Position numbers and translations under genes: made by a program
NCBI GenBank assembly: GCA_037200525.1
Contig: JBBCGG010000001.1
Span: forward strand, 707,526-771,525
Reading direction: 5' to 3'
DNA: 64,000 nt
Origin: Methylocella sp.
Lineage (GTDB): Bacteria; Pseudomonadota; Alphaproteobacteria; Rhizobiales; Beijerinckiaceae
Shown: piece by piece, positions 42,386-58,814 of the stretch
Numbering within the stretch: position 1 is the stretch's first letter
Layout of the letters: each line of letters opens with the position of its first letter
The notes under the pieces: generated by a model
Told to the model about the DNA's origin: nothing
Databases searched by the model: none
What the model saw: only the letters and a program-made list of their open reading frames with translations

Positions 42386-42586
42386 TGGGAACTCTTTGGG
42401 CGGTTACAGGGAAGACAAGGACGCGCGACTATAGTGGCGACGCACGTCGGCGCAAGTTGGCTTTGCCGCCTGACCACGATGCCGGATTGAATCCGGGCGC
42501 AAAACCGCCATCTTTGAAGGCGCAGGGACGACCTTGCGCTTTTCCGAAAATCGGTGGGGACGACCTTGCCATGAGCCCTGGGGTTC

Positions 42587-42862: not shown

Positions 42863-43036
42863 AAGCGAACTGCAGCGCCCCCTGATGGCGGCGGACAGAC
42901 CTGCATTCAAATCTTGGGAGAGGAGTCAGAGAATCGATTTCTTGACTGACAAGGTTGGCTGGCTTGGGTTTTTTGAAGCGCCGGTGTCTTAAGTTCGGAC
43001 GCAGCAAACCGCCACCTTGACGCCATGCCGACGGAG

Positions 43037-43094
43037 GCTTATCCAGATAAGCGGGACACCCTTCCCCAACGAAGGGCGCCCATCTGTAAGGATG
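43037..43094 (+). promoter_or_regulatory. Candidate serC leader RNA motif
   Basis: Three consecutive hairpins end directly at the serC start: GCTTAT/ATAAGC (43037-43052), CCCTTC/GAAGGG (43059-43076) and CATC/GATG (43081-43094). The last one contains the only purine run that could serve as the ribosome site. The serC RNA motif is a known alphaproteobacterial leader structure placed exactly upstream of serC. The match is by position and hairpin layout, not by a covariance model. Confidence 0.55.
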
Positions 43095-43103
43095 GCCATC
43101 ATG

Positions 43104-44276
43104 ATGACGACGATTCCCGCCGCGAAACCGGCGCGGCCAAATTTTTCCTGCGGCCCGACGGTCAAGCATCCGGGCTGGAGCCTCAAAAACCTCGAGAATG
43201 CGCCCTTTGGCCGCTCGCACCGCTCCGGCATCGGCAAATCCAAGCTGAAGCTCGCAATCGATCTCACCCGCGAAGTTTTGCAGGTCCCCGCCGACTATAG
43301 AATCGGGATCATCCCTGGTTCGGACACCGGCGCCGTCGAAGCCGCCTTGTGGTCGCTGCTTGGCCAGCGCGGGGTCGACGTGATCGCGTGGGAAGCCTTC
43401 AGCGAACATTGGGTCATTGACGTCGTAGAGCAGCTGCAACTGAAAAACACGCGCTCCATGGTGGCCGATTATGGCGAGATCGTCGATCTTTCGAGCCTTA
43501 ACTTCGATAATGACGTCGTTTTCGCCTGGAACGGAACGACGGCGGGCGTCAGCGTCCAAAATGGCGATTTTATCCCGGCCGACCGTAAGGGCCTGACGAT
43601 TTGCGATGCGACCTCCGCCGCTTTTGGCCAAAAGCTTGATTGGGCGAAGCTCGATGTCGTGACTTTCTCCTGGCAGAAAGTGCTCGGCGGCGAGGCTGCC
43701 CACGGGATGCTGATTCTCGGTCCGCGCGCGGTGGAGAGGCTGGAGACCTATACGCCAGCGTGGCCAATTCCCAAATTGTTTCGGCTGACCCACCAGGGCA
43801 AGTTGATAGAGAGCATTTTTGAAGGCGAGACGATCAATACGCCATCGATGCTCTGCGTCGAGGACTATATCGACGCCTTGAACTGGGCGAAATCGATCGG
43901 CGGCCTCGACGCGCTGACGAGGCGCGTCAGCGCCAATTCGAAAGCGCTCAGCGATTGGGTCGAGCGGACGCCTTGGATCGATTTCTTGGCGGCCGATCCG
44001 GCGATCAGATCAAATACCAGCATCTGCCTCAAGATCATCGACCCTGCCGTCGTCGCGCGCGGACGACGTGGCGAGGCGGAGTTTGCAAACGAGATGGTGA
44101 GCTTCCTCGCGGAGCAGGGCGCCGCTTATGACATCGGCTCTTATCGCGATGCGCCGCCTGGCCTGCGGATCTGGTGCGGCGCGACGGTGGACGCCAGCGA
44201 CCTTACGGCGCTGACGCGTTGGCTTGACTATGCCTATGCAATGGTCAAAGGCGCTTTTATGGATGAAGCCGCCTGA
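43104..44276 (+). CDS. serC: Phosphoserine aminotransferase SerC
   Basis: About 390 aa. Possible starts are ATG 43092, 43101 and 43104; I take 43104 (MTTIPAAKPARPNFSCGPTVKHPGW). It is the alphaproteobacterial-type phosphoserine transaminase. The PLP lysine is in VVTFSWQKVLGGEAAHGM, and other blocks are GIIPGSDTGAVEAALWSLLG and AWNGTTAGVSVQNGDF. It is the middle enzyme between serA and serB. serA follows on the same strand, 162 bp away. Confidence 0.95.
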   Translation: MTTIPAAKPARPNFSCGPTVKHPGWSLKNLENAPFGRSHRSGIGKSKLKLAIDLTREVLQVPADYRIGIIPGSDTGAVEAALWSLLGQRGVDVIAWEAFSEHWVIDVVEQLQLKNTRSMVADYGEIVDLSSLNFDNDVVFAWNGTTAGVSVQNGDFIPADRKGLTICDATSAAFGQKLDWAKLDVVTFSWQKVLGGEAAHGMLILGPRAVERLETYTPAWPIPKLFRLTHQGKLIESIFEGETINTPSMLCVEDYIDALNWAKSIGGLDALTRRVSANSKALSDWVERTPWIDFLAADPAIRSNTSICLKIIDPAVVARGRRGEAEFANEMVSFLAEQGAAYDIGSYRDAPPGLRIWCGATVDASDLTALTRWLDYAYAMVKGAFMDEAA

Positions 44277-46162: not shown

Positions 46163-47545
46163 GTGCGGCTATGGTCGTCCATTCGCGCGTTGCACCTCGC
46201 GGGAGTCGCGGCGATGCAGTGCGGCGTCGCTTACGCGGATGATGACTGGACGAAGATCGCAGGTGGCTCCATCGTGTCGAGCGTTCCGGCGCTTGCGGAT
46301 TTCAAGAAGGCGCTTTTTGATTACGGCTATAATTTTCAGATAAATTATACCGGCGAGACCTTCGGCAATCCAACAGGCGGCGTCAAGCAGGGCGCGATCT
46401 ATGAAGGTCTTCTCGAAATGGCGGTCGATGGCGATCTTGAAAAGATCGCCGGCCTGAAAGGCGGAACCTTTCACGTCAATGCCTACCAAATTCATGGCGA
46501 AGGGTTGTCGACCAACAACATCGACAATTTTATGACTGTCAGCAGCATAGAGGCGAGGCATTCGACGAGGCTTTTCGAGCTTTGGTACGAGCAGCAGCTT
46601 TTCGACAACAAGGCGTCGATCCGCATCGGTCAAATGTCGGCGGACGCCGAATTCTTCGTCAGCGACCTTGGCGCCCTGTTTCTAAATGCGACCTTCGGCC
46701 TGCCGAATAAGTTCGCCGCGGATCTCCCGAGCGGCGGCCCTGCCTATCCGCTGGCGACGCCCGCCGTTCGCCTCAAAGTCACCCCGACAGATGCGCTGAC
46801 CTTCCTTCTCGCTGCGTTTAACGGAGACCCGTCCGGCGCCGGATTCAACGGTTTGCAGGAGATCGAGGATCTTTCAGGCATCAATTTTCGTCTACGCGAT
46901 CCGCCTCTGGTCTTGGGCGAGGCACAATTTAGATATTACCAAGACAAGGATTCGCAAGGACTGGCCGGGACGTTCAAACTCGGCGCGTGGTACCATTTCG
47001 GCGACTTCGATGACCTCCGCTTCGGCACGGACCATCTTTCACTGGCCAATCCGGCCAGCAACCACGCTCCAGTCGTCTACAGCGGCGATTACTCCCTTCA
47101 CGCCGGGATCGATCAGATGGTCTGGCGATCGTCCAAAGCCGATCCGACAAAAGGAATTGGCGTGTTCAGCCGCGTGTCGATAAGCCCGACGGTGCGCAAT
47201 CTCGTCAATTTTTATGCTGAAGCCGGCGTGACCTTCAATGGCCTTTGGGACGCAAGGCCAGACGACGTATTCGGCGTTGGGGTGACCTATCTGGGGATTT
47301 CGCCTGAGGCGACAGCGCTCGATATGGATGCGAATTTCTTTGCCGGGTCCGCCATGCCGGTCCGCGATTTCGAATCCGTCATCGAACTTACCTACCAGGC
47401 GCACATCGCGCCCGGTTGGAACATTCAGCCGGATTTTCAATATATTTTTCGCCCCGGCGCCGGCGCGGTCAATCCGGCAAACCCCGCCGCCGGCCGCATT
47501 CCAGATGCGGCGGTGTTTGGGCTGCGAACAACGTTCAAGTTTTAA
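46163..47545 (+). CDS. Carbohydrate-selective porin, OprB family
   Basis: A 460-aa outer-membrane barrel, GTG start. The N-terminal LHLAGVAAMQCGVAYA is a signal peptide. The chain shows OprB blocks: YGYNFQINYTGETFGNPTGGV, ELWYEQQLFDNKASIRIGQMSADAEF, RYYQDKDSQGLAGTFKLGAWYHFGDF, and the C-terminal IPDAAVFGLRTTFKF with the aromatic last residue expected for barrel assembly. The substrate is not visible. The next gene is also a porin-like barrel. Confidence 0.9.
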   Translation: MRLWSSIRALHLAGVAAMQCGVAYADDDWTKIAGGSIVSSVPALADFKKALFDYGYNFQINYTGETFGNPTGGVKQGAIYEGLLEMAVDGDLEKIAGLKGGTFHVNAYQIHGEGLSTNNIDNFMTVSSIEARHSTRLFELWYEQQLFDNKASIRIGQMSADAEFFVSDLGALFLNATFGLPNKFAADLPSGGPAYPLATPAVRLKVTPTDALTFLLAAFNGDPSGAGFNGLQEIEDLSGINFRLRDPPLVLGEAQFRYYQDKDSQGLAGTFKLGAWYHFGDFDDLRFGTDHLSLANPASNHAPVVYSGDYSLHAGIDQMVWRSSKADPTKGIGVFSRVSISPTVRNLVNFYAEAGVTFNGLWDARPDDVFGVGVTYLGISPEATALDMDANFFAGSAMPVRDFESVIELTYQAHIAPGWNIQPDFQYIFRPGAGAVNPANPAAGRIPDAAVFGLRTTFKF

Positions 47546-47979: not shown

Positions 47980-49542
47980 ATGGCTGTTCAGCGAAGACCT
48001 TCCTTGCTGCCGGCGCTCTTCGCCGGCGCATTCCTCCTGAACACGGGGCAGTTTGCGCGCGCTGCGGATTTGCCCCTCGCCCCCGTCCCGTCGACGCAGG
48101 AAGAGCTCAACTTCTTCACCGCGTTTTATCACGCCTATGCCGACGAATGGGGCATGCCGTCCGCGCCTGCGACGCCCGGCGCGCCGCCCGTCGTGTCCCG
48201 GCGCCCGGCGCCCTTCCCGCCGCAGCCGGAAACGATTCCGCCCTATCCGTTCGCCGAGTGGCCGGCAGGCGGCATGGACTACATCGGCGCCGCAATTCCA
48301 AATGCGGTGGATAGCCCGCTGATGCATGCTCTCGATGCGACGCCCATCGGGAAACCGCTTGAGGATGCGCACATCCAGATTTATGGCTGGATCGACGCAG
48401 GCGGCAACGTGAGCACCGCGAAAACCGGTTATGCCGGCAACGCGCCAGCAGCCTATTCCTACACGCCAAATATTCTGCAGCTCGACCAGGCCGTCATGTA
48501 TGTCGAACGCGTCCCGGATACCGTGCAGCAGGACCATATCGACTGGGGCTTTCGCTTGAGCGGGTTCTACGGCGAAAACTATCGCTTTACGACCGCCCTT
48601 GGCGTCTTAAGCAACCAATTCGCGGTGCATAATCATTTCGCCGGCTGGGACGTGCCGATGGTCTATGGCGAACTTTATGTTCCGGGCGTGCTGGATGGGC
48701 TGGAATTCCGTCTTGGTCGGTATATCTCGGTGCCGGATATCGAGGCGCAGCTCGCGCCAAACAACTACATGTATTCGCACTCGATGACCTATGCCGTTGA
48801 TAACTTCACGAACACGGGTCTGCTCACCTCTCTGAAGGTGAACAAGAACTGGCTGTTGCAGTTTGGCCTCAGCGCCGGAACCGAGACCGTGCCGTGGAAT
48901 GCCAAGCAAGTCTCGCTTATTAACCCGACGACGGGCTTCCCGGGCTACCATGGCCAGAGGGATCCTGGCACGCAGCCGACTTTCACTGGCTGCGTCCAAT
49001 GGCAGAGCGATACCAACTACGACGCCCTTTATCTGTGCGCCAACGGCATCAACGACGGCCAGTGGGGCTACAACAACCTGCAATGGTGGGGTGGCACTTA
49101 TTATCACAAGTTCGACGACAAGTGGCACATCTCGGTCGAATCGTACTACATGTACGAGAAGAACGTCCCGAATAAGACTTTGGGGTTCGGCGCTACTCCG
49201 TTCGCTTTCCTAATTAACCCTCCGAACGAAGCTGTCTGCGCAGCCAACCAGATGTCCTGCACCGCGAGGGAATACGCAGCGCTTAGCTATCTGAACTACA
49301 GGTGGTCGGATATGGACAATCTGACCTGGCGCGCGGAATATTATAACGACCTCAATGGTCAGCGCACCGGCTTTGCAACTCAGTATGTCAACTTTGCCTT
49401 CGGCTGGCAGCATTGGTTCTCGCCTCAAGTCGAGATCCGTCCGGAAATCGCGTGGTATAATGCGCTGGACAAGCCGGCCTTCGACAACGGCACCAAGCAT
49501 GCGCTTACTATCGCCTCGATGGATTTGATCTGGCACTACTAA
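47980..49542 (+). CDS. Outer-membrane beta-barrel porin (BBP2-like)
   Basis: A 520-aa protein with signal peptide LLPALFAGAFLLNTGQFARAADLP. After a Pro-rich stretch (residues 55-85) the chain becomes barrel-like: IQIYGWIDAGGNVSTAKTGY, FRLSGFYGENYRFTTALGVL, LEFRLGRYISVPDIEAQLAPNNYMYSHSM and the C-terminal HALTIASMDLIWHY. The YGWIDAGGN and PDIEAQLAPNNY pattern is that of the outer-membrane family annotated BBP2 (putative beta-barrel porin). It sits upstream of the riboswitch, not downstream. Confidence 0.8.
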   Translation: MAVQRRPSLLPALFAGAFLLNTGQFARAADLPLAPVPSTQEELNFFTAFYHAYADEWGMPSAPATPGAPPVVSRRPAPFPPQPETIPPYPFAEWPAGGMDYIGAAIPNAVDSPLMHALDATPIGKPLEDAHIQIYGWIDAGGNVSTAKTGYAGNAPAAYSYTPNILQLDQAVMYVERVPDTVQQDHIDWGFRLSGFYGENYRFTTALGVLSNQFAVHNHFAGWDVPMVYGELYVPGVLDGLEFRLGRYISVPDIEAQLAPNNYMYSHSMTYAVDNFTNTGLLTSLKVNKNWLLQFGLSAGTETVPWNAKQVSLINPTTGFPGYHGQRDPGTQPTFTGCVQWQSDTNYDALYLCANGINDGQWGYNNLQWWGGTYYHKFDDKWHISVESYYMYEKNVPNKTLGFGATPFAFLINPPNEAVCAANQMSCTAREYAALSYLNYRWSDMDNLTWRAEYYNDLNGQRTGFATQYVNFAFGWQHWFSPQVEIRPEIAWYNALDKPAFDNGTKHALTIASMDLIWHY

Positions 49543-49849
49543 TCTCAAATCGGCGGATCTGCGAAAGCAGGTTCGCCAATTTTCTAAAGGGTCAATTTTC
49601 GCATCGTCCGATGCGACGGAGGCGGCGCGCAGCGAATGGACCTGCAGGCGCGCCGCAATTGCGACAGTCGCGCGCAAACTGGTCGCTGACGCGACCCTTG
49701 CGCTTCCAGGTATCCAAACCTAGCGTAATTTGCGGGACAAACTTCCTCCATAAAGTCCGTCCTTCGACGAGGGCACTTACAGCGCGAAGAGCAATCGAAT
49801 TTGCGACGGAAGTCACCGCGTCCGTTGACTATCGATTTCAAAGACGACA

Positions 49850-50065
49850 TGGTGATCGCGATGGTTCCCTTCGGGGATCAAAAGGGAACGCGGTGCGGCT
49901 TAACCGCCAATACCGTGGCTGCCCCCGCAACTGTAAGCGGCGAGCCGCGCGCCGATCATGCCACTGGGCAACCGGGAAGGCGGCGCAAGGCAGCAACCCG
50001 CGAGCCAGGAGACCTGCCATCAGCCGTGGTCACGCGCGAACGCATTGGGCGGGGTGTCTCGATGA
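49850..50065 (+). promoter_or_regulatory. Cobalamin (B12) riboswitch
   Basis: Canonical elements are visible in order: the peripheral hairpin GGTTCCCTTC...GAAGGGAAC-like region (49862-49889), CCCCGCAACTGTAA (about 49923-49936), GCCACTG (49960-49966), AACCGGGAAGG (49970-49980), and the B12 box AGCCAGGAGACCTGCC (50003-50018). A GC-rich segment with GGGTGTCTCG follows, where the kissing loop or regulatory hairpin normally lies. It precedes the 708-aa barrel gene by about 75 bp, so in its B12-bound form it should lower that gene's expression. Confidence 0.95.
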
Positions 50066-50139
50066 GAAATAGGTCTCTCGCCTGATTTGGGCGCGGGCCT
50101 GGGCTTAGTTCGCAGTGACCCCTCAGTTGCTGCGATGCG

Positions 50140-52266
50140 ATGATGGTAAATTATTTTTCGATACGGTCGCCTTCGCATCACTGGCGCTTGAGGCTGGCTT
50201 CCTCGGTCTTCGCGGCGGCGGCTGCCGCCCCTGTTATTGCGGCGAATTCCGTTCTCGCGGCGGATCTTCCGCGCGAGTCGTCATCGGCCCCCGCTTCGCC
50301 TGCCATCACTTGGACTGGTCTTTATCTTGGGGTGAATTCGGGAGCCTGGTTCTCTCCTGGCGCGCCAAGCTATCAAGCCATCGGCGGCTTCGATCTGTTC
50401 CCGAATGGAGGCGCGCCGAACGCTGGCTTCACCGGGGGCTTCCAGGGCGGGTACGATTATCAGATCGACAAGCTGCTGCTTGGCTTTGAAACCGATTTCA
50501 ATTATCTCGGCAATTGCCGCAGCGGCGCGTTCGCCGCTCCAGCGATCTTCGCGAACTTCGGCGGTTCTTACAGTCTATCAGGCAGTTGCTCGCACTATTT
50601 CGGCACGATGCGGGGCCGGATCGGCTATATTTACGATCGCGCGCTGTTCTATGCCACCGCAGGCATCGCCTATGGCGGCAACCGCGATCCGGGCTCGATC
50701 AATTTCAACCCGCCGGCTCCCGGCAATTTATTCACAACCGGCGCATCGAGTTCATCCCGACCCAAATACGTCTTTGGCGCTGGAATTGAATACGCCCTGA
50801 CCGACCATTGGTTCGCCAGAGCGGAATATCTCTACGTCAATCTTGGCCGCATCGATCAGACATTCGCGAATGGGGCGGGGCGCGGCTTTTTTTCGAGCTC
50901 CTACAGCGAGAATCACATTCTTCGGGTCGGGCTTGACTATAAATTCGGCGACTTTCCGTCATCGGTCCCGGCGCCAGCCCTCGCGGCGGCCGAGCCCGCC
51001 AAATCGGACGGCGACGCGCAGGCGGCGCCAGAGGCATATAATTTCCACGGCCAGGCAACCTATCTTCCGCAATATTACCCGACGTTCCAGGCGCCCTATT
51101 CGGGACCCCATAGCGTACCGCCAAATAGCCATGTCGAAGCAACTTTCACGGCGACGGCGTTTCTCGGCCTGGCTCTATGGCAGGGCGCTGCAATTTTTCT
51201 CAATCCCGAGGTCGATGAGGGCTTTGGCATTGGCGATGCGTTTGGCATCGCCGGGTTTCCGAACAATGAGGCTTTCAAAGTCGGCAGCACAGATCCGTAT
51301 GTGCGCATCCAGCGTTATTTTTTGCGCCAGACGGTCGGCCTCGGCGGGACGACCGAACCGGTTGAATCAGGGCAAAACCAACTCGCGGGATCAGTTGACG
51401 CTAATCGCCTGACATTCACGATCGGCAAATATGCGGTGACCGATATTTTCGACGACAATAAATATGCCCATGACGGCCGAAACGGTTTCATGAATTGGAC
51501 GACCAACACCATGGGCGCGTTCGATTTCGCAGCCGACGCCTGGGGCTATACTTACGGCTTGACCGCGGAATGGAGACAGGATTGGTGGACCGCGCGAGCC
51601 GGCGTTTTCCAATTGTCTTCCGTGCCCGCCGCCAATTCGATCGAACCCGAACTCTTCCGCCAATTCATGCCGGTAGTGGAATTCGAGGAGCGTCACGCGA
51701 TCCAGGAGCAGCCCGGCAAACTGAAGTTCCTTTTCTTTGCCGACGATGGCTTTATGGGCAGTTACAGTCAGGCCATCGCGGAAGCCGCGGCGGCAGGCGT
51801 GACGCCCGATATAACGTCGGTGCGGGCGCGTCGCGTCAAGGTTGGCGGCGGCGTCAATCTCGAACAGCAGATCACGCCAAGCCTTGGTCTTTTCGTGAGG
51901 CTGAGCGCAGCGAACGGCCAATATGAGACTTACGACTTCACCGAGGTCGAGCGCTCCGCCTCGGGCGGCGTCGTGATCAGCGGCGATTTATGGGGCAGAG
52001 ACAATGACCAGATCGGCGTCTCCGGCGTCCTCAACGGCATTTCCGCCGTGCATGCCCAATATCTCGCCGCGGGCGGGATCGGCGCCATTCTCGGCGACGG
52101 GGCCCTGTCCTATGGCGGGGAGCACATCTTTGAGACCTATTACAAATATGCAATTGCCGACGGGGTGAATGTCACCGCTGACTACCAATTCGTCGACAAC
52201 CCTGGCTACAATCAGGCCCGAGGCCCGATTTCGCTTTTTGCCTTGCGGTTCCATGCTGAGTTCTAA
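50140..52266 (+). CDS. Double-barrel outer-membrane protein (Omp25-like fused to OprB-like), B12-riboswitch controlled
   Basis: A 708-aa protein with signal peptide (RLASSVFAAAAAAPVIAANSVLAADLP). Residues about 50-276 are an Omp25/Omp31-type barrel: WTGLYLGVNSGAWFS, FQGGYDYQIDKLLLGFETDFNY, and the end ENHILRVGLDYKFG. After an Ala/Pro linker (277-295), residues about 298-708 are an OprB-like porin: YNFHGQATYLPQYYPTFQ, AFLGLALWQGAAIFLNPEVDEGFG, RLTFTIGKYAVTDIFDDNKY, and the end LFALRFHAEF. Each part has its own barrel-type ending. It lies directly behind the B12 riboswitch. A role in uptake of a cobalamin-related compound or cobalt is inference. Confidence 0.85.
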   Translation: MMVNYFSIRSPSHHWRLRLASSVFAAAAAAPVIAANSVLAADLPRESSSAPASPAITWTGLYLGVNSGAWFSPGAPSYQAIGGFDLFPNGGAPNAGFTGGFQGGYDYQIDKLLLGFETDFNYLGNCRSGAFAAPAIFANFGGSYSLSGSCSHYFGTMRGRIGYIYDRALFYATAGIAYGGNRDPGSINFNPPAPGNLFTTGASSSSRPKYVFGAGIEYALTDHWFARAEYLYVNLGRIDQTFANGAGRGFFSSSYSENHILRVGLDYKFGDFPSSVPAPALAAAEPAKSDGDAQAAPEAYNFHGQATYLPQYYPTFQAPYSGPHSVPPNSHVEATFTATAFLGLALWQGAAIFLNPEVDEGFGIGDAFGIAGFPNNEAFKVGSTDPYVRIQRYFLRQTVGLGGTTEPVESGQNQLAGSVDANRLTFTIGKYAVTDIFDDNKYAHDGRNGFMNWTTNTMGAFDFAADAWGYTYGLTAEWRQDWWTARAGVFQLSSVPAANSIEPELFRQFMPVVEFEERHAIQEQPGKLKFLFFADDGFMGSYSQAIAEAAAAGVTPDITSVRARRVKVGGGVNLEQQITPSLGLFVRLSAANGQYETYDFTEVERSASGGVVISGDLWGRDNDQIGVSGVLNGISAVHAQYLAAGGIGAILGDGALSYGGEHIFETYYKYAIADGVNVTADYQFVDNPGYNQARGPISLFALRFHAEF

Positions 52267-52570: not shown

Positions 52571-53863
52571 ATGGAAACCGACGAAATGACCCGCTCTGAA
52601 AGCCAATCCGAAATCGCCGCGGAAGCGAAGTCGCCGACCGCGCCGGGCAAGGCTTTCGGTAAATCGCGCCAAAAACGATTGCCTATTCTTTTGTTCTTCG
52701 CGGCTTTGGCCGCAGCCGCTTATTTCTTCGGTCCCGCCGCATATCAGGCGATAATGCCGAAGCCAAAAACCGTCGCGGTCGCGGCGCGACCGGACGCCGC
52801 TGAGGCGCTTCCGGCCGACAGCGTTCGATTGTCGGAAAAACAACTGGCGGCGATCAAAGTCGCGCCGGTCGCCTATGCCGAGTTTCAGATCGAGAAATCT
52901 GCGACGGGCAGCATCGATTTCAACCAGGATATGGCGGTCCAGGTGTTTGCGCCCTATCAGGGCCGGATCAAGGATCTGTCCGCGAAGATCGGCGACAGGG
53001 TGAAGGCGGGCCAGACTCTTTATACGATCGACAGCACGGATCTCCTCCAGGCGGAATCGACGCTGATCCAGACCGCTGGCGTGCTGGACTTGGCGAACCG
53101 CTCCCTGGCTCGGAACGAGAAGCTCGTGAAGGCGGGCGGCGGCGCGCAGAAGGATCTCGACCAATCGGTTTCCGATCAGCAAACCGCCGAGGGTAATCTC
53201 AGAGCCGCGCGCGACGCCGTGCGTTACTTTGGCAAGACTGACGCCGAGATCGACCGCATCGTGGCCGACCGCCATGTCGACTCGACTTTGATCGTGCCGT
53301 CTCCCATTTCCGGCGAGATCACCGCCCGCAGCGCCGCTACCGGACTCTTCGTTCAGCCGGGCAATGCGCCGGCCCCTTATACGGTGGCGGATACTTCGAC
53401 TGTATGGATGAACTCCTTCGTCGTGGAGAGTGAAATCCCCGCTCTTAGCCTCGGCCAGCAAGTTGAAGCGCAAGTGCTGGCCTATCCAGATCGCGTCTTC
53501 GAAGGAAAAGTCACGACGCTTGGCGCGAGCGTCGATCCGGTCACCCGCCGCCTTCTGGTGCGATCGGAGATCAAAGATCCGGAAAACCTCCTGCGTCCCG
53601 GAATGTTCGCGACGTTCGTCATACGCACCGGCAAGTCGAGCCGTTCGATCGCTCTCCCGCCAGGCGGAGTAGTGCGTGAGGGAGACGGGACGATGTCGGC
53701 ATGGGTCACGGACGGCAAAGTGTTCACCAAGCGGACGGTCCGGCTCGGACTGCAGCAGAATGGTTACGATCAGGTCCTGGAAGGTCTTAAACCCGGCGAA
53801 CAGGCCGTGACCGATGGGGCGGTATTTCTGAGCAACATGCTTGCGGGCGGCGCGACCGACTAA
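52571..53863 (+). CDS. RND efflux periplasmic adaptor (CzcB/CusB-like)
   Basis: A 430-aa membrane-fusion protein. A single N-terminal TM (RLPILLFFAALAAAAYFFG) anchors it. The order is the usual one: FAPYQGRIKDLSAKIGDRVKAGQTLYTID lipoyl half, a helical hairpin (about 155-220), second lipoyl half VPSPISGEITARSAATGLFVQPG, then a beta-barrel domain (TVWMNSFVVESEIPALSLGQ) and membrane-proximal strands. Start at ATG 52571 or 52586. It is 56 bp before the pump gene. Confidence 0.9.
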   Translation: METDEMTRSESQSEIAAEAKSPTAPGKAFGKSRQKRLPILLFFAALAAAAYFFGPAAYQAIMPKPKTVAVAARPDAAEALPADSVRLSEKQLAAIKVAPVAYAEFQIEKSATGSIDFNQDMAVQVFAPYQGRIKDLSAKIGDRVKAGQTLYTIDSTDLLQAESTLIQTAGVLDLANRSLARNEKLVKAGGGAQKDLDQSVSDQQTAEGNLRAARDAVRYFGKTDAEIDRIVADRHVDSTLIVPSPISGEITARSAATGLFVQPGNAPAPYTVADTSTVWMNSFVVESEIPALSLGQQVEAQVLAYPDRVFEGKVTTLGASVDPVTRRLLVRSEIKDPENLLRPGMFATFVIRTGKSSRSIALPPGGVVREGDGTMSAWVTDGKVFTKRTVRLGLQQNGYDQVLEGLKPGEQAVTDGAVFLSNMLAGGATD

Positions 53864-53919
53864 GGTCCTTCTTAGACAAAAATCAATTAACGGAACCGGT
53901 TTCCTAAGCGAAGGCGCCA

Positions 53920-56900
53920 ATGATTAAAGCTGTGCTCGCATTCGGACTGACCCATCGCGCCATCGTCGTAATTGGCGCGGTGGTGTTCATGGCCGCCGGA
54001 TTATTCGCGTTTTCCAGGCTTAACATTGAGGCTTATCCCAATCCTGCGCCAGTGATTCTGGAAATCACCGCCCAGGCCCCCGGCCTGTCCGCAGAAGAAA
54101 TGGAGAAATATTACACGATTCCAATGGAGGTCGGTCTCTACCCGACCCCTGGCGTCGACACCATAAGGTCGACTTCATTCTACGGTCTGTCGTTCATTCG
54201 CGTGACCTTCAAATATGGCACGGACTTTTATTTTGCCTATACGCAGGCGGCGCTAAGCCTTCAGCAGAACGTCAATCTTCCGGGAAACCAGGTCGCTCAA
54301 ATCCAGCAGTCGAGCCTCGTCGGCGAGATCTATCGCTATCAAGTCGTCGGTCCCCCCCATTTCGGCTTGACTAACCTTCGCACGATCCAGGATTGGGTCG
54401 TCACGCGCCGCCTGCTGACCATCCCCGGCGTCGTTCAAATCAACAGCTGGGGAGGCACGACCAAGCAGTTCAACGTCGACGCCGATCTTCAAAAGCTTGA
54501 GGGCTTCAATGTAACTGTGCCCCAGCTCATTACCGCTATCGGCAACGCCAATATCAACGTGGGCGGCCGCGAAATCTCGATCGGGCAGCAGTCCGTGAAC
54601 ATTCGCGGCATCGGCTTGATCGATGACGGCGGCGGCGACGACGTCACCAAAGGTTACAAGTTTGACGACATCGAGAATATCGTCCTGACGCAATCCAACG
54701 GCGTTCCTGTTCAGATCAAGGATGTCGCGACCGTCTCGATTGGAAATGTTCCGAGGTTGGGCATCGCCGGTCGCGATCATGAAGATGACGTTACCGCAGC
54801 CATCGTGGTCATGGGCCGGACGCAGCACACTAATACTATTCTTCCCCGCGTCCAGGCCGAAGTCGAGAAGATCAACTCCGACGGCACACTGCCTCCGGGG
54901 GTCAAGATCGCCCCCTACTACGACCGCAGTTCTCTCGTGGGGGTCACTACCCATACGGTTCTGCACAATCTCGTATTCGGTTGCCTCCTCGTCTTCTTCA
55001 TCCAGTGGATCTTCCTTGGCGATTTGCGCAGCGCCATCATCGTCAGCATCAATATTCCATTCGCGCTTTTTTTCGCCATCATACTTCTGGTGCTGCAAGG
55101 CGAGGACGCAAATCTCTTGTCGCTGGGGGCGGTCGACTTCGGCATCATCGTGGACTCAGCGGTGATCTTGGTCGAAAACATATTTCGAAATTTCCAGGCG
55201 AGAAGACCAGAACGGCAGATGCTTTTGCAGCATTTGACCGAAGGATACTGGGGGGCGAACCCGACAAGTTCGCTGGGTTCGCAGGGAAGCAGCCTCAGAT
55301 GGAGCACGCGGCTGCGCTTGGTCTTCATCAGCGCGCTGCAGGTCGATCAGGCGGTGTTTTTTACCGCTGCGATCACTATCACGGCGTTCGTTCCCCTGTT
55401 TACGATGCAGGGCGTCGAGGGTCAGATATTCGGCCCGATGGCAAAAACGTATGGCTATGCGCTTGCGGGCGCGTTGATCGCGACGTTTACCGTCACGCCA
55501 GTCTTCGCCTCCCTGGTGCTGCCCGCCCGCATCGAAGAGACCGAGACGATCATCGTTCGGGGGCTGCGCTCCATCTACACCCCCGTCCTGAAATGGGGCC
55601 TCTCGCGTCTGCCGATCATCATCGGTCTGGGTTTGCTGTTTCTCCTCGCCAGCGGGTTCGCGGCGAGCAAACTCGGCAGCGAGTTCCTGCCTGCGCTTGA
55701 GGAAGGAAACTATTGGATCCGCGCCTCCATGCCGTCGACGATGTCCCTCAATTCGGGCACCGAGGCGACTTCGAAAATGCGTGAAATCCTGCTGCGGCAT
55801 CCGGAAATCATCACGGTGGTCTCCCAACACGGCCGTCCGGACAACGGCAGCGACGCCTCCGCCTTTTCCAATGTCGAGTTGTTTGCGCCGCTAAAGCCGC
55901 TCGACGAGTGGCCGGCCGGTTTGACCAAAGACCAACTTACCGAGCAGCTTCAGCAGGAGTTTGCCGAAGAACTGCCGGGAATTGGCTTCAACTTCTCGCA
56001 ATACATACAGGACAACGTCGAAGAGGCGCTTTCCGGCGTCAAAGGGGCGAACTCGGTCAAGGTGATCGGGCCGAATCTCAACACCCTTGAGACCTTGGCT
56101 GCGCAGGTCTCGGAACAAATGGTCAATGTTCACGGGGTCGAGGATCTCGGGACCTTCCATGTCATCGGCCAGCCAAACTTGAACATCAAGATCGATCGGG
56201 CCAAGGCGGCGCGATATGGTCTCAACACAGGGGACGTGAACTCGGTTATCCAGACCGCGATGAGCGGAAGCACCGCCACCACGGTTCTTGAAGGCGACCG
56301 CCAGTTCGGAGTCTCCGTTCGCCTGGATCCAAAATTCCGCGAGAGCATCGATGAAATCGGCAAAATCAAAGTGGCTTATTCGACGGGCAACGGAGCCAAC
56401 GCCTATATCCCGCTGAGCCAACTCGCCACCATCACCCTCGATACCGGCGCCGCATACATCTATCGCGAGCGCAGCGATCGTTACATACCGATCAAGTTCA
56501 GCGTGCGCGGCCGCGATCTCGGAAGCACTGTCGCCGAAGCGCAGGCCTTGGTCGCTAAAAACGTGAAGCTGCCGGCCGGGTACCGGATCATGTGGTCCGG
56601 GGAATTTGAGGACCTTGAGAACGCCAAGGCTCGGCTCACGGTGATCGTGCCGATCACTTTCCTGCTCATCCTTGTGCTTCTCTACACGTTGTTCAACTCC
56701 CTGCGCGACAGCCTGTTGTCGATGGCCGGCATACCGTTCGCCGTGGCCGGCGGCATTTTCGCGCTGTATTTTTCCGGCCAGCCCTTCAGCGTCTCCGCCG
56801 CTATCGGGTTCATTTCGCTGTTTGGCGTAGCGGTCATGGACGGCATCTTGAACATTACCTACTACCGCGAATTGAGGATTCGCGGCATGTCCATCGCCGA

Positions 56901-57255
56901 AGCCGTCTTCCGCGGATCGGAGCAGCGGATGCGGCCGATGTTGATGACGGCGCTTTCCGCCGGCGTCGGCTTGTTCCCTGCGGCCATCTCGCATGGCATT
57001 GGCAGTCAGGTGCAGCGACCGCTCGCCACGGTCGTTGTGGGCGGCATGACTATAGGGCCCGTCATGCTGCTGATCGTCGCGCCCGCGCTTCGCATGCTGT
57101 TCCTCAGGGGCGATGACAAAAAGCGCGGAGGCGACGGACGAACCAGAAACGGACGACAAAAGGGCGGGGCGCCGCAGCCCGGGGGGCGCGCGGAAGCGGA
57201 AAATCCGCATGAGGCAGGAGCGCTTGGAAACATCGCTCCGGAGCCCGGAGAGTGA
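53920..57255 (+). CDS. RND efflux pump, CzcA/CusA-like
   Basis: A 1111-aa inner-membrane pump. TM1 is HRAIVVIGAVVFMAAGLFAF, and the TM4 region carries GAVDFGIIVDSAVILVENIFR with the Asp, Asp and Glu used for proton relay in heavy-metal (HME) pumps. Periplasmic loops and the second half (GVKGANSVKVIGPNLNTLE, FGVAVMDGILNITYYRELRIRG) are complete. Between VENIFR and ALQVDQAVFF there are about 48 residues, including GYWGANPTSSLGSQGSS, longer than in CzcA as I remember it. The C-terminal tail is Gly/Arg-rich. The stop overlaps the next start by 4 bp. Confidence 0.9.
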   Translation: MIKAVLAFGLTHRAIVVIGAVVFMAAGLFAFSRLNIEAYPNPAPVILEITAQAPGLSAEEMEKYYTIPMEVGLYPTPGVDTIRSTSFYGLSFIRVTFKYGTDFYFAYTQAALSLQQNVNLPGNQVAQIQQSSLVGEIYRYQVVGPPHFGLTNLRTIQDWVVTRRLLTIPGVVQINSWGGTTKQFNVDADLQKLEGFNVTVPQLITAIGNANINVGGREISIGQQSVNIRGIGLIDDGGGDDVTKGYKFDDIENIVLTQSNGVPVQIKDVATVSIGNVPRLGIAGRDHEDDVTAAIVVMGRTQHTNTILPRVQAEVEKINSDGTLPPGVKIAPYYDRSSLVGVTTHTVLHNLVFGCLLVFFIQWIFLGDLRSAIIVSINIPFALFFAIILLVLQGEDANLLSLGAVDFGIIVDSAVILVENIFRNFQARRPERQMLLQHLTEGYWGANPTSSLGSQGSSLRWSTRLRLVFISALQVDQAVFFTAAITITAFVPLFTMQGVEGQIFGPMAKTYGYALAGALIATFTVTPVFASLVLPARIEETETIIVRGLRSIYTPVLKWGLSRLPIIIGLGLLFLLASGFAASKLGSEFLPALEEGNYWIRASMPSTMSLNSGTEATSKMREILLRHPEIITVVSQHGRPDNGSDASAFSNVELFAPLKPLDEWPAGLTKDQLTEQLQQEFAEELPGIGFNFSQYIQDNVEEALSGVKGANSVKVIGPNLNTLETLAAQVSEQMVNVHGVEDLGTFHVIGQPNLNIKIDRAKAARYGLNTGDVNSVIQTAMSGSTATTVLEGDRQFGVSVRLDPKFRESIDEIGKIKVAYSTGNGANAYIPLSQLATITLDTGAAYIYRERSDRYIPIKFSVRGRDLGSTVAEAQALVAKNVKLPAGYRIMWSGEFEDLENAKARLTVIVPITFLLILVLLYTLFNSLRDSLLSMAGIPFAVAGGIFALYFSGQPFSVSAAIGFISLFGVAVMDGILNITYYRELRIRGMSIAEAVFRGSEQRMRPMLMTALSAGVGLFPAAISHGIGSQVQRPLATVVVGGMTIGPVMLLIVAPALRMLFLRGDDKKRGGDGRTRNGRQKGGAPQPGGRAEAENPHEAGALGNIAPEPGE

Positions 57256-58814
57256 TGATGTTCTTTAGAGGGACCCTATTGCAATCAAACCGCAGAAGCG
57301 GCGCGGCGGCTTTTGCCGGAATGACGGCGGGCATGGCGTGCACCCTGTTGGCCGCTTGCGGGCCTGATTTTCAAAAGCCCGCGGCCCCGGACGTGACGCG
57401 ATTCACGCCGGAGCCTTTGGCGCATGACCTGGCCGGGTCCGGGAAGGCTGGCGGCCCGCAACATTTCGTCGAAGGCCTCGATATTCCCGGCCAATGGTGG
57501 GAGACGTTTCATTCGCGCGCGCTGAATGACCTGATTGAAGATTCGCTGAAGCATAATGCGGATTTGCAGGCGGCGCAGGCGGCCTTGCGCGTGGCCCATG
57601 AGACGGCGGAAGCCCAGAAAGGCGCTTTCTATCCACAGGTCAGCGGCAACTATAATGGCTTCCGCCAGAAGGTCGCCGGCGAGGTTTCGCCGCCGGGCGT
57701 AACGCCGTCCGACTTCTTCAGCCTGCATACGTTCGAGGTCGATGTATCCTACGCGCCAGACGTGTTCGGCTTGGTCCAAAAGCAGGTGGAATCGGCCGAA
57801 GCGCAAAGCGACGCGCAACGGTTTCAACTTGAAGCGACTTATCTGACCCTCACGTCCAATGTGGTTTTGGCGGCTATCCAGGAAGCCTCGCTGCGCTCGC
57901 AGATCGCCTCGACGGAAAAGATCATCGCCATCGAGAGCGACCTTTTGAAGCTGCTCCAGACTCAGAAGGGCTTGGGTCAGGTCGCCACTGCGGATGTGCT
58001 GGTGCAGGAGGCGGCCCTCGCGCAATCGCAGCAGACGCTTCCGCCGCTGCAAAAGCAGCTTGCTCAGCAGCGCGATCTTCTGACGGCGTTGGCGGGACGC
58101 TTTCCGAGCGATGAAGTCGCTGAAAAGTTTACGCTCGACTCCTTGCGGCTTCCGCGCGACCTGCCGGTCAGCTTGCCGTCGAAGACGGTGGAGCATCGCC
58201 CCGACGTGCAGGCCGCCGAGGCCAATATGCACTCGGCGAGCGCCGCCATTGGCGTTGCTATCGCCAATCGATTGCCAGTGATCAATTTGACCGCGAATGG
58301 AGGAACAAGCGCGTCCGCCTTCTCGCAGATTTTCCAGCCCCCGACTTACGCCTGGACCGTCGCCGGGAGCGTGTCAGAAACCATTTTCGACGGATTCTCC
58401 CTGTATCATAAGCAGAGAGCCGCCGAAGCCGCCTATGAGCAGGCCGACGCGCAATATCGAAGCACTGTCATCACCGCATTCCAGAACGTCGCCGATACTC
58501 TCCGCGCGCTCCAGGCCGACGCGCGCGGACTCCAGGCGGCGGTGAAAGCTGAGGACGCAGCGCTCAAAAGCCTGGATATCGTGCGAAAACAGGCGCAGCT
58601 CGGGCAAGTCAACAGCCTCGCCATTCTCAACGCGCAGCAAACCTACCTGCAATCGCTTCTCACCCGCGCGCAGGCGCAGGCCAATCGCTACTCAGACACA
58701 GCCGCTCTGTTCCAGGCGTTGGGAGGCGGCTGGTGGAATCGAACCGACGTGATCGCCTCCACCGCACCATGCAGATCTCCGCTATTCACTTTACCGACGG
58801 ATCCCTGCTTCTGA
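57252..58814 (+). CDS. RND outer-membrane factor (NodT/OprM family lipoprotein)
   Basis: A 520-aa TolC-like channel that completes the tripartite pump. The N-terminus ends in a lipobox (TLLAACGPDF, Cys about residue 35). Two repeats of the TolC fold are seen: NDLIEDSLKHNADLQAAQAALRVAHET... and VEHRPDVQAAEANMHSASAAIGVAIANRLPVINL. ATG 57252 overlaps the pump stop (coupled). The last residues (STAPCRSPLFTLPTDPCF) do not look family-like and may be a drifted tail. Confidence 0.92.
   Translation: MMMFFRGTLLQSNRRSGAAAFAGMTAGMACTLLAACGPDFQKPAAPDVTRFTPEPLAHDLAGSGKAGGPQHFVEGLDIPGQWWETFHSRALNDLIEDSLKHNADLQAAQAALRVAHETAEAQKGAFYPQVSGNYNGFRQKVAGEVSPPGVTPSDFFSLHTFEVDVSYAPDVFGLVQKQVESAEAQSDAQRFQLEATYLTLTSNVVLAAIQEASLRSQIASTEKIIAIESDLLKLLQTQKGLGQVATADVLVQEAALAQSQQTLPPLQKQLAQQRDLLTALAGRFPSDEVAEKFTLDSLRLPRDLPVSLPSKTVEHRPDVQAAEANMHSASAAIGVAIANRLPVINLTANGGTSASAFSQIFQPPTYAWTVAGSVSETIFDGFSLYHKQRAAEAAYEQADAQYRSTVITAFQNVADTLRALQADARGLQAAVKAEDAALKSLDIVRKQAQLGQVNSLAILNAQQTYLQSLLTRAQAQANRYSDTAALFQALGGGWWNRTDVIASTAPCRSPLFTLPTDPCF

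Follow-up and report, generated by a model that had tools for sequence, protein, structure and literature searches.

Known systems and the locus

BtuB, the TonB-dependent receptor for vitamin B12, is defined by a TonB plug domain and a 22-strand barrel, while OprB-type porins are plugless and make up the carbohydrate porin family (PF04966; Pseudomonas putida OprB, 4gey). We analyzed a 64,000-nt stretch of Methylocella sp. DNA (GenBank assembly GCA_037200525.1, contig JBBCGG010000001.1, positions 707,526 to 771,525; hereafter the window), which belongs to a single 5.24-Mb contig. In it, a cobalamin (B12) riboswitch leader of the btuB type precedes a gene (50140-52266) for an outer-membrane protein predicted to join an Omp25-like barrel to an OprB-like barrel. 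The reading that we consider best, and hold with moderate confidence, is that the protein is a B12-repressed outer-membrane channel, putatively for cobalt, that took over the control of btuB.

An excerpt of a 2021 review (PMC7689651) gives the route of cobalt as porins or TonB-dependent transporters, with no cobalt-specific outer-membrane receptor confirmed. The nearest described case of a metal-related OprB porin is from Geobacter sulfurreducens, where an excerpt of PMC545781 has a FUR-controlled OprB porin lying before feoAB and predicted to pass iron. That porin and ours are alike as OprB-family members under a metal-related regulator with a metal as the proposed substrate, and they differ in that the Geobacter case involves iron and a protein repressor rather than B12 and a riboswitch. 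Published work has already proposed outer-membrane proteins with several barrels (Solan et al. 2021, as cited in an excerpt of PMC8592465), and the window protein resembles these in having two predicted barrels in one chain. Among the matches listed in our literature search, which left most subscription journals outside, no title or abstract opening described a B12-riboswitch-controlled OprB porin. The parts of the system are of known kinds; the combination is new.

The riboswitch leader and its target

The cobalamin riboswitch (RF00174) lies at 49845-50035 on the forward strand and matches the full aptamer (model 1-189 of 189) with 118.8 bits against a gathering score of 31.5 (E 3.4e-29), in agreement with the initial annotation, which had named both a B12 riboswitch here and the two-barrel gene as its target. 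That gene, encoding 708 aa, is the next one, with 104 nt between the end of the aptamer and its start codon. The leader consists of the following elements:

49825-49853, + strand: promoter-like TTGACT, 17 nt, CATGGT (read by eye; btuB leaders carry two comparable boxes at this position)
49845-50035, + strand: cobalamin riboswitch aptamer RF00174 (covariance-model match over the whole model)
50029-50041, + strand: platform segment a, the anti-sequestor, able to pair with c (pairing kept across 15 leaders)
50108-50119, + strand: platform segment c, able to pair with a or d (pairing kept across 15 leaders)
50126-50135, + strand: platform segment d, 4 nt 5' of the start codon; c:d pairing sequesters the start region (pairing across leaders)

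In an alignment of 15 leaders, which includes one piece from the same genome that has no aptamer, 97.6% of cells are paired in the a:c helix (12-47% in slid versions) and 99.4% in the c:d helix (23-53% in slid versions). The two helices are mutually exclusive and, judging from the sequence, both are intact in the window copy. Covariation in the platform is thin, with one two-sided change per helix. A hairpin at segment d is present in the minimum free energy fold of the leader too, and the folding energy of the leader alone is not unusual (z -0.34). The consensus-promoter scan found no promoter and did not report the TTGACT/CATGGT pair, and terminator-like sites numbered five against 4.0 expected. 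The leader appears to be built like an ordinary translational B12 switch, from which we infer the direction of switching.

Two other accounts of the riboswitch were rejected. Another gene as its true target can be set aside, since 50140-52266 comes first and the following operon begins 304 nt past its end. Nor was the element recently duplicated from the genome's own metE or cobW switch, with which only the conserved core is alike (75% and 72% over the aligned part).

A porin with two predicted barrels

The protein and its two domains are placed as follows:

50140-52266, + strand: two-barrel outer-membrane protein of 708 aa, with a signal peptide (by inspection), an 8-stranded barrel, a linker and a 16-stranded OprB-type barrel (open reading frame, Pfam, AlphaFold2)
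50317-50943, + strand: N-terminal Omp25/OmpA-like barrel, residues 60-268 (Pfam, AlphaFold2)
51037-52260, + strand: C-terminal OprB-like barrel, residues 300-707 (Pfam, AlphaFold2, structure match)

Pfam assigns residues 48-269 to OMP_b-brl (49.5 bits, cut-off 28.7), with an overlapping match to OmpA_membrane at residues 108-270 (26.9 bits, cut-off 21), and residues 346-708 to OprB (PF04966; 119.2 bits, cut-off 22.9). No Pfam match to the TonB Plug or the TonB barrel was found in the 708 aa. An AlphaFold2 model built from a 28-sequence alignment (mean predicted local distance difference test, pLDDT, 78.7; predicted template modeling score 0.64) has 8 long strands at residues 60-268 and 16 at 300-707, as counted from the DSSP list with the short strands (3-5 residues) in between left out. 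The linker between the two sets is of low confidence, with pLDDT below 50 at residues 272-293. The best solved match by Foldseek is P. putida OprB (4gey), through the C-terminal part (E 4e-16; template modeling score 0.72 by target length, 0.44 by query length); a sequence search of the PDB gave a single match at chance level (E 0.7).

The C-terminal domain is therefore an OprB family member by sequence and predicted fold. It departs from the family in its fusion to an Omp25-like barrel, its B12 control and the metal-transport genes near several of its homologues. With BtuB (TIGR01779) the protein shares its place in the outer membrane and its leader, but instead of a plug and a 22-strand barrel it has 8 + 16 long strands in the model and two barrels of other families. 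An Omp25-like barrel fused to an OprB-like one, in a protein that is not of the BtuB type and has no TonB plug, is what the initial annotation had described; a structure prediction with a single barrel would have spoken against it, and the model has two strand sets. We take the N-terminal 8-stranded barrel as accessory. Elsewhere in the genome, the Omp25-like part has 12 further matching loci, including a cluster of four at 2.215-2.220 Mb.

Origin of the leader from btuB

With window positions 49780-50140 as the DNA query, five related leaders were found (G and L numbers denote genomes and loci): 88% identical in G144 (Methylocella tundrae), G198 and G126, 87% in G159 and 79% in G103. All five matches begin near window position 49858-49860 and end near 50135-50138. 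The next gene encodes a BtuB-type receptor in G144, G126, G198 and G103; the M. tundrae receptor is matched best in NCBIfam by TonB-B12, with a score under the cut-off of that model. These leaders are 89-94% identical to the window leader in the aptamer and 74-79% in the platform, and homology ends at the start codon. TTGAC stands in the same column of all six full leaders, while the remaining sequence 5' of the aptamer is only 35-45% identical to the window.

The window leader thus has the same aptamer and expression platform as a btuB leader, at 88% DNA identity to three from Methylocella, but it controls a plugless porin rather than a TonB-dependent receptor, and the sequence 5' of the aptamer is not conserved. 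Its regulatory origin is well supported by these comparisons: it appears to be a btuB leader transplanted onto a porin gene. The initial annotation was right about the riboswitch and had not foreseen a btuB leader transplanted within a genome without detected btuB.

Further pieces of the leader occur in the same genome. A stretch of 117 nt (G000:C1:1586969-1587085; L017:1477-1593) is 96.6% identical to window 49824-49940, covering the promoter region and the first half of the riboswitch, and runs into an N-terminally cut alpha/beta-hydrolase frame; it is probably a broken, recent copy. Another, of about 116 nt (G000:C1:5010750-5010868; L119:2751-2869), is 87% identical to window 50023-50138 and holds the platform and the 5' end, without aptamer or gene; it adjoins a fragment of a ribonucleotide reductase small chain. 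On M. tundrae plasmid p2 (NZ_CP139087.1; L314), btuB and its riboswitch lie beside integrase genes and a VapBC pair, and this plasmid btuB is a possible source of leader movement.

BtuB in the genus and a second porin behind a btuB leader

A search with the M. tundrae BtuB in 15 genomes of the genus, the window's included, found an orthologue in seven (E at most 5e-182), each of them behind RF00174. None was found in the window's genome, where the best match was 31% over ~170 aa (E 5.9e-9). G159 gave no match, though absence is less certain there because the genome is a draft of ~310 contigs. The TIGR01779 model scored 231-286 bits in the seven BtuB genomes, 56.6 in the window's and 34.3 in G159, all of them below its curated cut-off of 599.7. 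Six of the 15 genomes, but neither the window's nor G159, hold a match to the DUF7676 gene that adjoins btuB in M. tundrae. One genome, G203 (77% complete), has neither RF00174 nor a BtuB orthologue.

In G159, the gene behind the btuB leader encodes a stand-alone OprB porin, truncated where the contig ends, that is 55% identical over 195 aa to the porin at window 46163-47545. The first ~15 codons of the G159 porin are btuB-like, with scores of 50 against G199 (reached by 0 of 500 shuffles), 30 against G103 (1 of 500) and 18 against G144 (67 of 500). No such remnant was found at the start of the window porin, where 27, 83 and 231 of 500 shuffles reached the score against G103, G199 and G144. 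Because of these btuB-like codons, the leader-porin junction of G159 is, at the sequence level, a different one from the window's. A CobW tree of 12 rows groups the window's genome with three others (support 94/93) and places G159 in another clade (100/98). Since CobW puts the two genomes in different branches, capture of the leader by OprB-family porins, of two different types, probably happened twice; horizontal transfer is possible. In Methylocella, then, one riboswitch leader stands before different genes of one functional class in two genomes, and regulatory evolution by leader swapping is directly traceable.

The host carries aerobic B12-synthesis genes, as judged by sequence. Its four RF00174 matches are the window's, one before metE, one before cobW and the cob gene cluster, and a broken copy of 47.5 bits. 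An NCBIfam scan of 10 proteins, covering the cluster and MetE, identified CobW, CobN, CobG, CobI, CobJ, the CobL halves (CbiE, CbiT), CobM, CobB and a cob(I)yrinic acid adenosyltransferase (CobO-type), along with the MetE encoded behind a B12 riboswitch. A gene for a probable cobalt transporter, cbtA, is also present. Elsewhere in the genus, a cobalamin riboswitch precedes a CbiM-type cobalt uptake gene (L076, in G040), and another, on an M. tundrae plasmid (L058, G144), precedes a ribonucleotide reductase large-chain gene.

A parallel case in Acetobacteraceae

Among 27 plasmid regions scanned, RF00174 precedes a porin in three, all from Acetobacteraceae, and in 0 of the 13 that hold homologues of the fusion. 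On an Acetobacter pasteurianus plasmid the riboswitch (L336 6360-6579, 95.5 bits) is followed after 118 nt by an OprB porin (6698), with the probable cobalt transporter genes cbtB and cbtA downstream in the same orientation. Acetobacter sp. AC2005 has the same arrangement of riboswitch, porin and cbtB-cbtA. In Novacetimonas hansenii the riboswitch (L339 3547-3778, 107.9 bits) lies 156 nt before the porin (3935), cbtBA is divergent, and a cobyric acid synthase gene is near. Three Komagataeibacter regions with homologues had no RF00174. On the A. pasteurianus plasmid, two more cobalamin riboswitches (L336 9601-9818 and 10629-10870) lie at most 1.5 kb downstream of cbtA, before small hypothetical genes.

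The Acetobacter porin is 35% identical over 439 aa to the window's 46163 porin. Because it is only 23% identical over 112 aa to the OprB part of the fusion, the B12-controlled porins belong, on the evidence of these alignments, to different OprB subfamilies. Like the window, the Acetobacter and Novacetimonas systems have a cobalamin riboswitch directly 5' of a PF04966 porin, and there the probable cobalt transporter genes adjoin; unlike it, they are single-barrel, come from another OprB subfamily and have leaders that align with the window's only in stretches of 23-49 nt. This case, which came to light among regions of the 46163 type intended as controls, is the strongest support for cobalt as the putative substrate.

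Homologues of the fusion and their neighborhoods

The OprB part of the fusion has matches in 45 of 199 genomes of the family, short and weak ones counted. In all 29 loci fetched (L023-L051), homology spans both barrels (from query residue 58 or earlier to 708), and nine plasmid records cover at least 80% of the window protein. By these sequence matches, the two-barrel architecture is not specific to the B12-controlled system. Homologues with a listed gene are annotated 'carbohydrate porin', a label that may be wrong for such proteins. Across 14 loci compared, the window included, the fusion was clustered in 12. A conserved neighbor that would name its function was rejected, as no other cluster recurs in more than five. 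One neighbor cluster, in three loci, resembles by eye a hydrogenase small subunit, and a link to hydrogenase and nickel was considered.

Fifteen plasmid records hold a near-full match to the OprB part. We examined 13 plasmid regions, seven with two-barrel and six with single-barrel homologues, over 7-12 kb on each side; two had no annotation. A gene for divalent or heavy-metal transport lies near the homologue in seven of the 11 annotated regions. The two-barrel cases are Afipia (CDF, FTR1), Bradyrhizobium (Nramp) and Methylobacterium organophilum (NRAMP, CusA/CzcA), and the single-barrel cases are Massilia putida (DmeF for Co/Ni), Cupriavidus metallidurans (mgtA), Sphingomonas (mgtE, ~6 kb away) and Spirosoma (Nramp, NikM). 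Not counted as metal-linked were C. taiwanensis (MgtC only), Methylosinus and two M. fujisawaense. In the M. putida region, a manganese riboswitch (yybP-ykoY, 89 bits; L318 14023-14117) lies ~5 kb from the homologue.

Proposed function and alternatives

In the reading that we favor, a porin gene in a Methylocella lineage without detected btuB has acquired the btuB leader, comprising the aptamer, the translational platform and the 5' end as far as the start codon. When adenosylcobalamin is scarce, segments a and c would pair, leaving segment d and the start codon free, and the porin would be made; at high coenzyme levels, c would pair with d instead and translation would stop. The plugless OprB-type pore would pass Co2+, or a mixture of divalent metals containing Co2+, across the outer membrane to feed B12 synthesis, as the gene neighborhoods and the parallel case suggest. 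Cobalt would cross the outer membrane through the porin, on whose synthesis the coenzyme would exert negative feedback, and the inner membrane through CbtAB. Given the cob genes of the host and the cbtBA genes beside B12-switched OprB porins in other bacteria, cobalt fits better than a corrinoid as the likely substrate. The protein had been suggested to handle a corrinoid, cobalt or something else of B12 supply; the link to B12 supply stands, with cobalt the better fit.

More tentatively, and with somewhat less confidence, we propose a dedicated cobalt channel of the outer membrane, consisting of plugless OprB-family porins under repression by cobalamin riboswitches, that would have arisen more than once in Alphaproteobacteria and would include the two-barrel protein in the window. 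B12-controlled OprB porins beside cbtBA would then be named, testable candidates for cobalt entry, in acetic acid bacteria and in Methylocella.

A number of results weigh against the cobalt channel as we read it. A B12 riboswitch before other Omp25-OprB fusions, which the initial annotation had proposed to look for, did not turn up: RF00174 occurs in 0 of 33 homologue loci (the 29 fetched and four stand-alone ones, L052-L055; L045 has only 41 nt of upstream sequence and is uninformative on this point) and in 0 of the 13 plasmid regions with fusion homologues. As no other examined homologue of the fusion has the riboswitch, B12 control is not a family trait. From the side of the riboswitch, we sampled 130 loci among the matches listed (30 + 100) in 89 genomes of the family, the window's own site lying outside the sample. 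The next gene there is BtuB-like in 54, CobW-like in 25 and MetE-like in six (BLAST E at most 1e-5). For the remaining 45, where only the largest downstream open reading frame was scanned, the main Pfam families are CbtA (10), ribonucleotide reductase (5), NicO (4), ABC (4) and TonB plug (4). OprB, BBP2 or OMP_b-brl follows the riboswitch in 0 of the 130 loci (25 of 26 families, among the matches listed).

The metal neighborhoods are themselves uneven. Counted apart, two-barrel regions are metal-linked in three of six cases and single-barrel regions in four of five, and the 46163-type OprB porins meant as a control are metal-linked too (five of nine regions). Since the intended control shares the link and leaves no clean background rate, the metal-neighbor counts are suggestive only.

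Other points concern the leader. The window platform is 75-79% identical to the btuB leaders, against 81-91% among G144, G198 and G126; the btuB-leader platform of G103 is as distant as the window's (74-78%). The promoter need not have come with the leader and may be new, given the lack of conservation 5' of the aptamer. The level of c:d pairing is not unusual, with 65 of 500 shuffles reaching it because the columns hardly vary, and no strong Shine-Dalgarno sequence was seen before 50140 on inspection. Finally, five genomes (G172, G076, G040, G200 and G201) have RF00174 but lack a BtuB orthologue, and in none of them was a leader of this kind seen; their strong riboswitches precede cobW and, once in G040, cbiM. 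The absence of btuB therefore does not require capture by a porin.

Some of these results would also be expected if the capture was an accident, in which a rearrangement after the loss of btuB put the leader before a chance gene, so that an ordinary or metal-stress porin came under B12 control without metabolic purpose. The two broken leader pieces in the same genome (117 nt at 96.6%, ~116 nt at 87%) are signs of copying and breakage, the M. tundrae btuB sits on a plasmid beside integrase genes, and the fusion is under B12 control at no other examined locus. However, both full-leader captures in the genus involve PF04966 porins, of which the window's genome has nine matches among an estimated order of 5,000 genes, so that a second chance event is unlikely. 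The aptamer and both platform helices are intact, and the separate Acetobacteraceae case again joins an OprB porin, a B12 riboswitch and cbtBA. We consider an accident unlikely on balance, yet the most credible of the alternatives.

It is less probable still that the porin replaces BtuB as a port for cobalamin, cobinamide or other corrinoids, which would enter by diffusion without TonB. In its favor, a btuB leader stands before a porin both here and in G159, two genomes without detected BtuB. Against it, cobalamin is usually too large to pass general and sugar porins, genes for making the corrin ring are present in the host, and in the parallel Acetobacter system the partner is a probable transporter of cobalt and not of corrinoids.

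A role in heavy-metal export or resistance, with the protein working alongside the downstream RND operon and B12 control tuning metal tolerance, is very improbable: the operon begins 304 nt downstream and comparable RND genes are found close to the homologues of L317 and L328, but the operon has its own TolC-type partner, an RND neighbor occurs in only three of the 14 loci compared, and cobalamin riboswitches usually shut off supply genes when B12 is plentiful (see the excerpted review, PMC7689651).

Neighboring genes

The genes on either side of the fusion are as follows:

46163-47545, + strand: stand-alone OprB porin, of the type found behind the btuB leader in G159 (Pfam; 55% over 195 aa)
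47980-49542, + strand: BBP2 beta-barrel porin, the upstream neighbor (Pfam)
52571-53863, + strand: RND adaptor (TIGR01730, 150.5 bits, over cut-off)
53920-57255, + strand: CusA/CzcA heavy-metal RND pump (TIGR00914, 849.7 bits, over cut-off)
57252-58814, + strand: NodT-type outer-membrane factor (TIGR01845, 392.7 bits, over cut-off)

Because of the 304-nt gap to the porin gene, the RND operon (52571-58814) is probably a separate unit. Farther upstream in the window, a Guanidine-II riboswitch (41.6 bits, 42520-42568) and a serC leader (67.2 bits, 43049-43100) lie just before and at the start of the open reading frame at 43017-44276.

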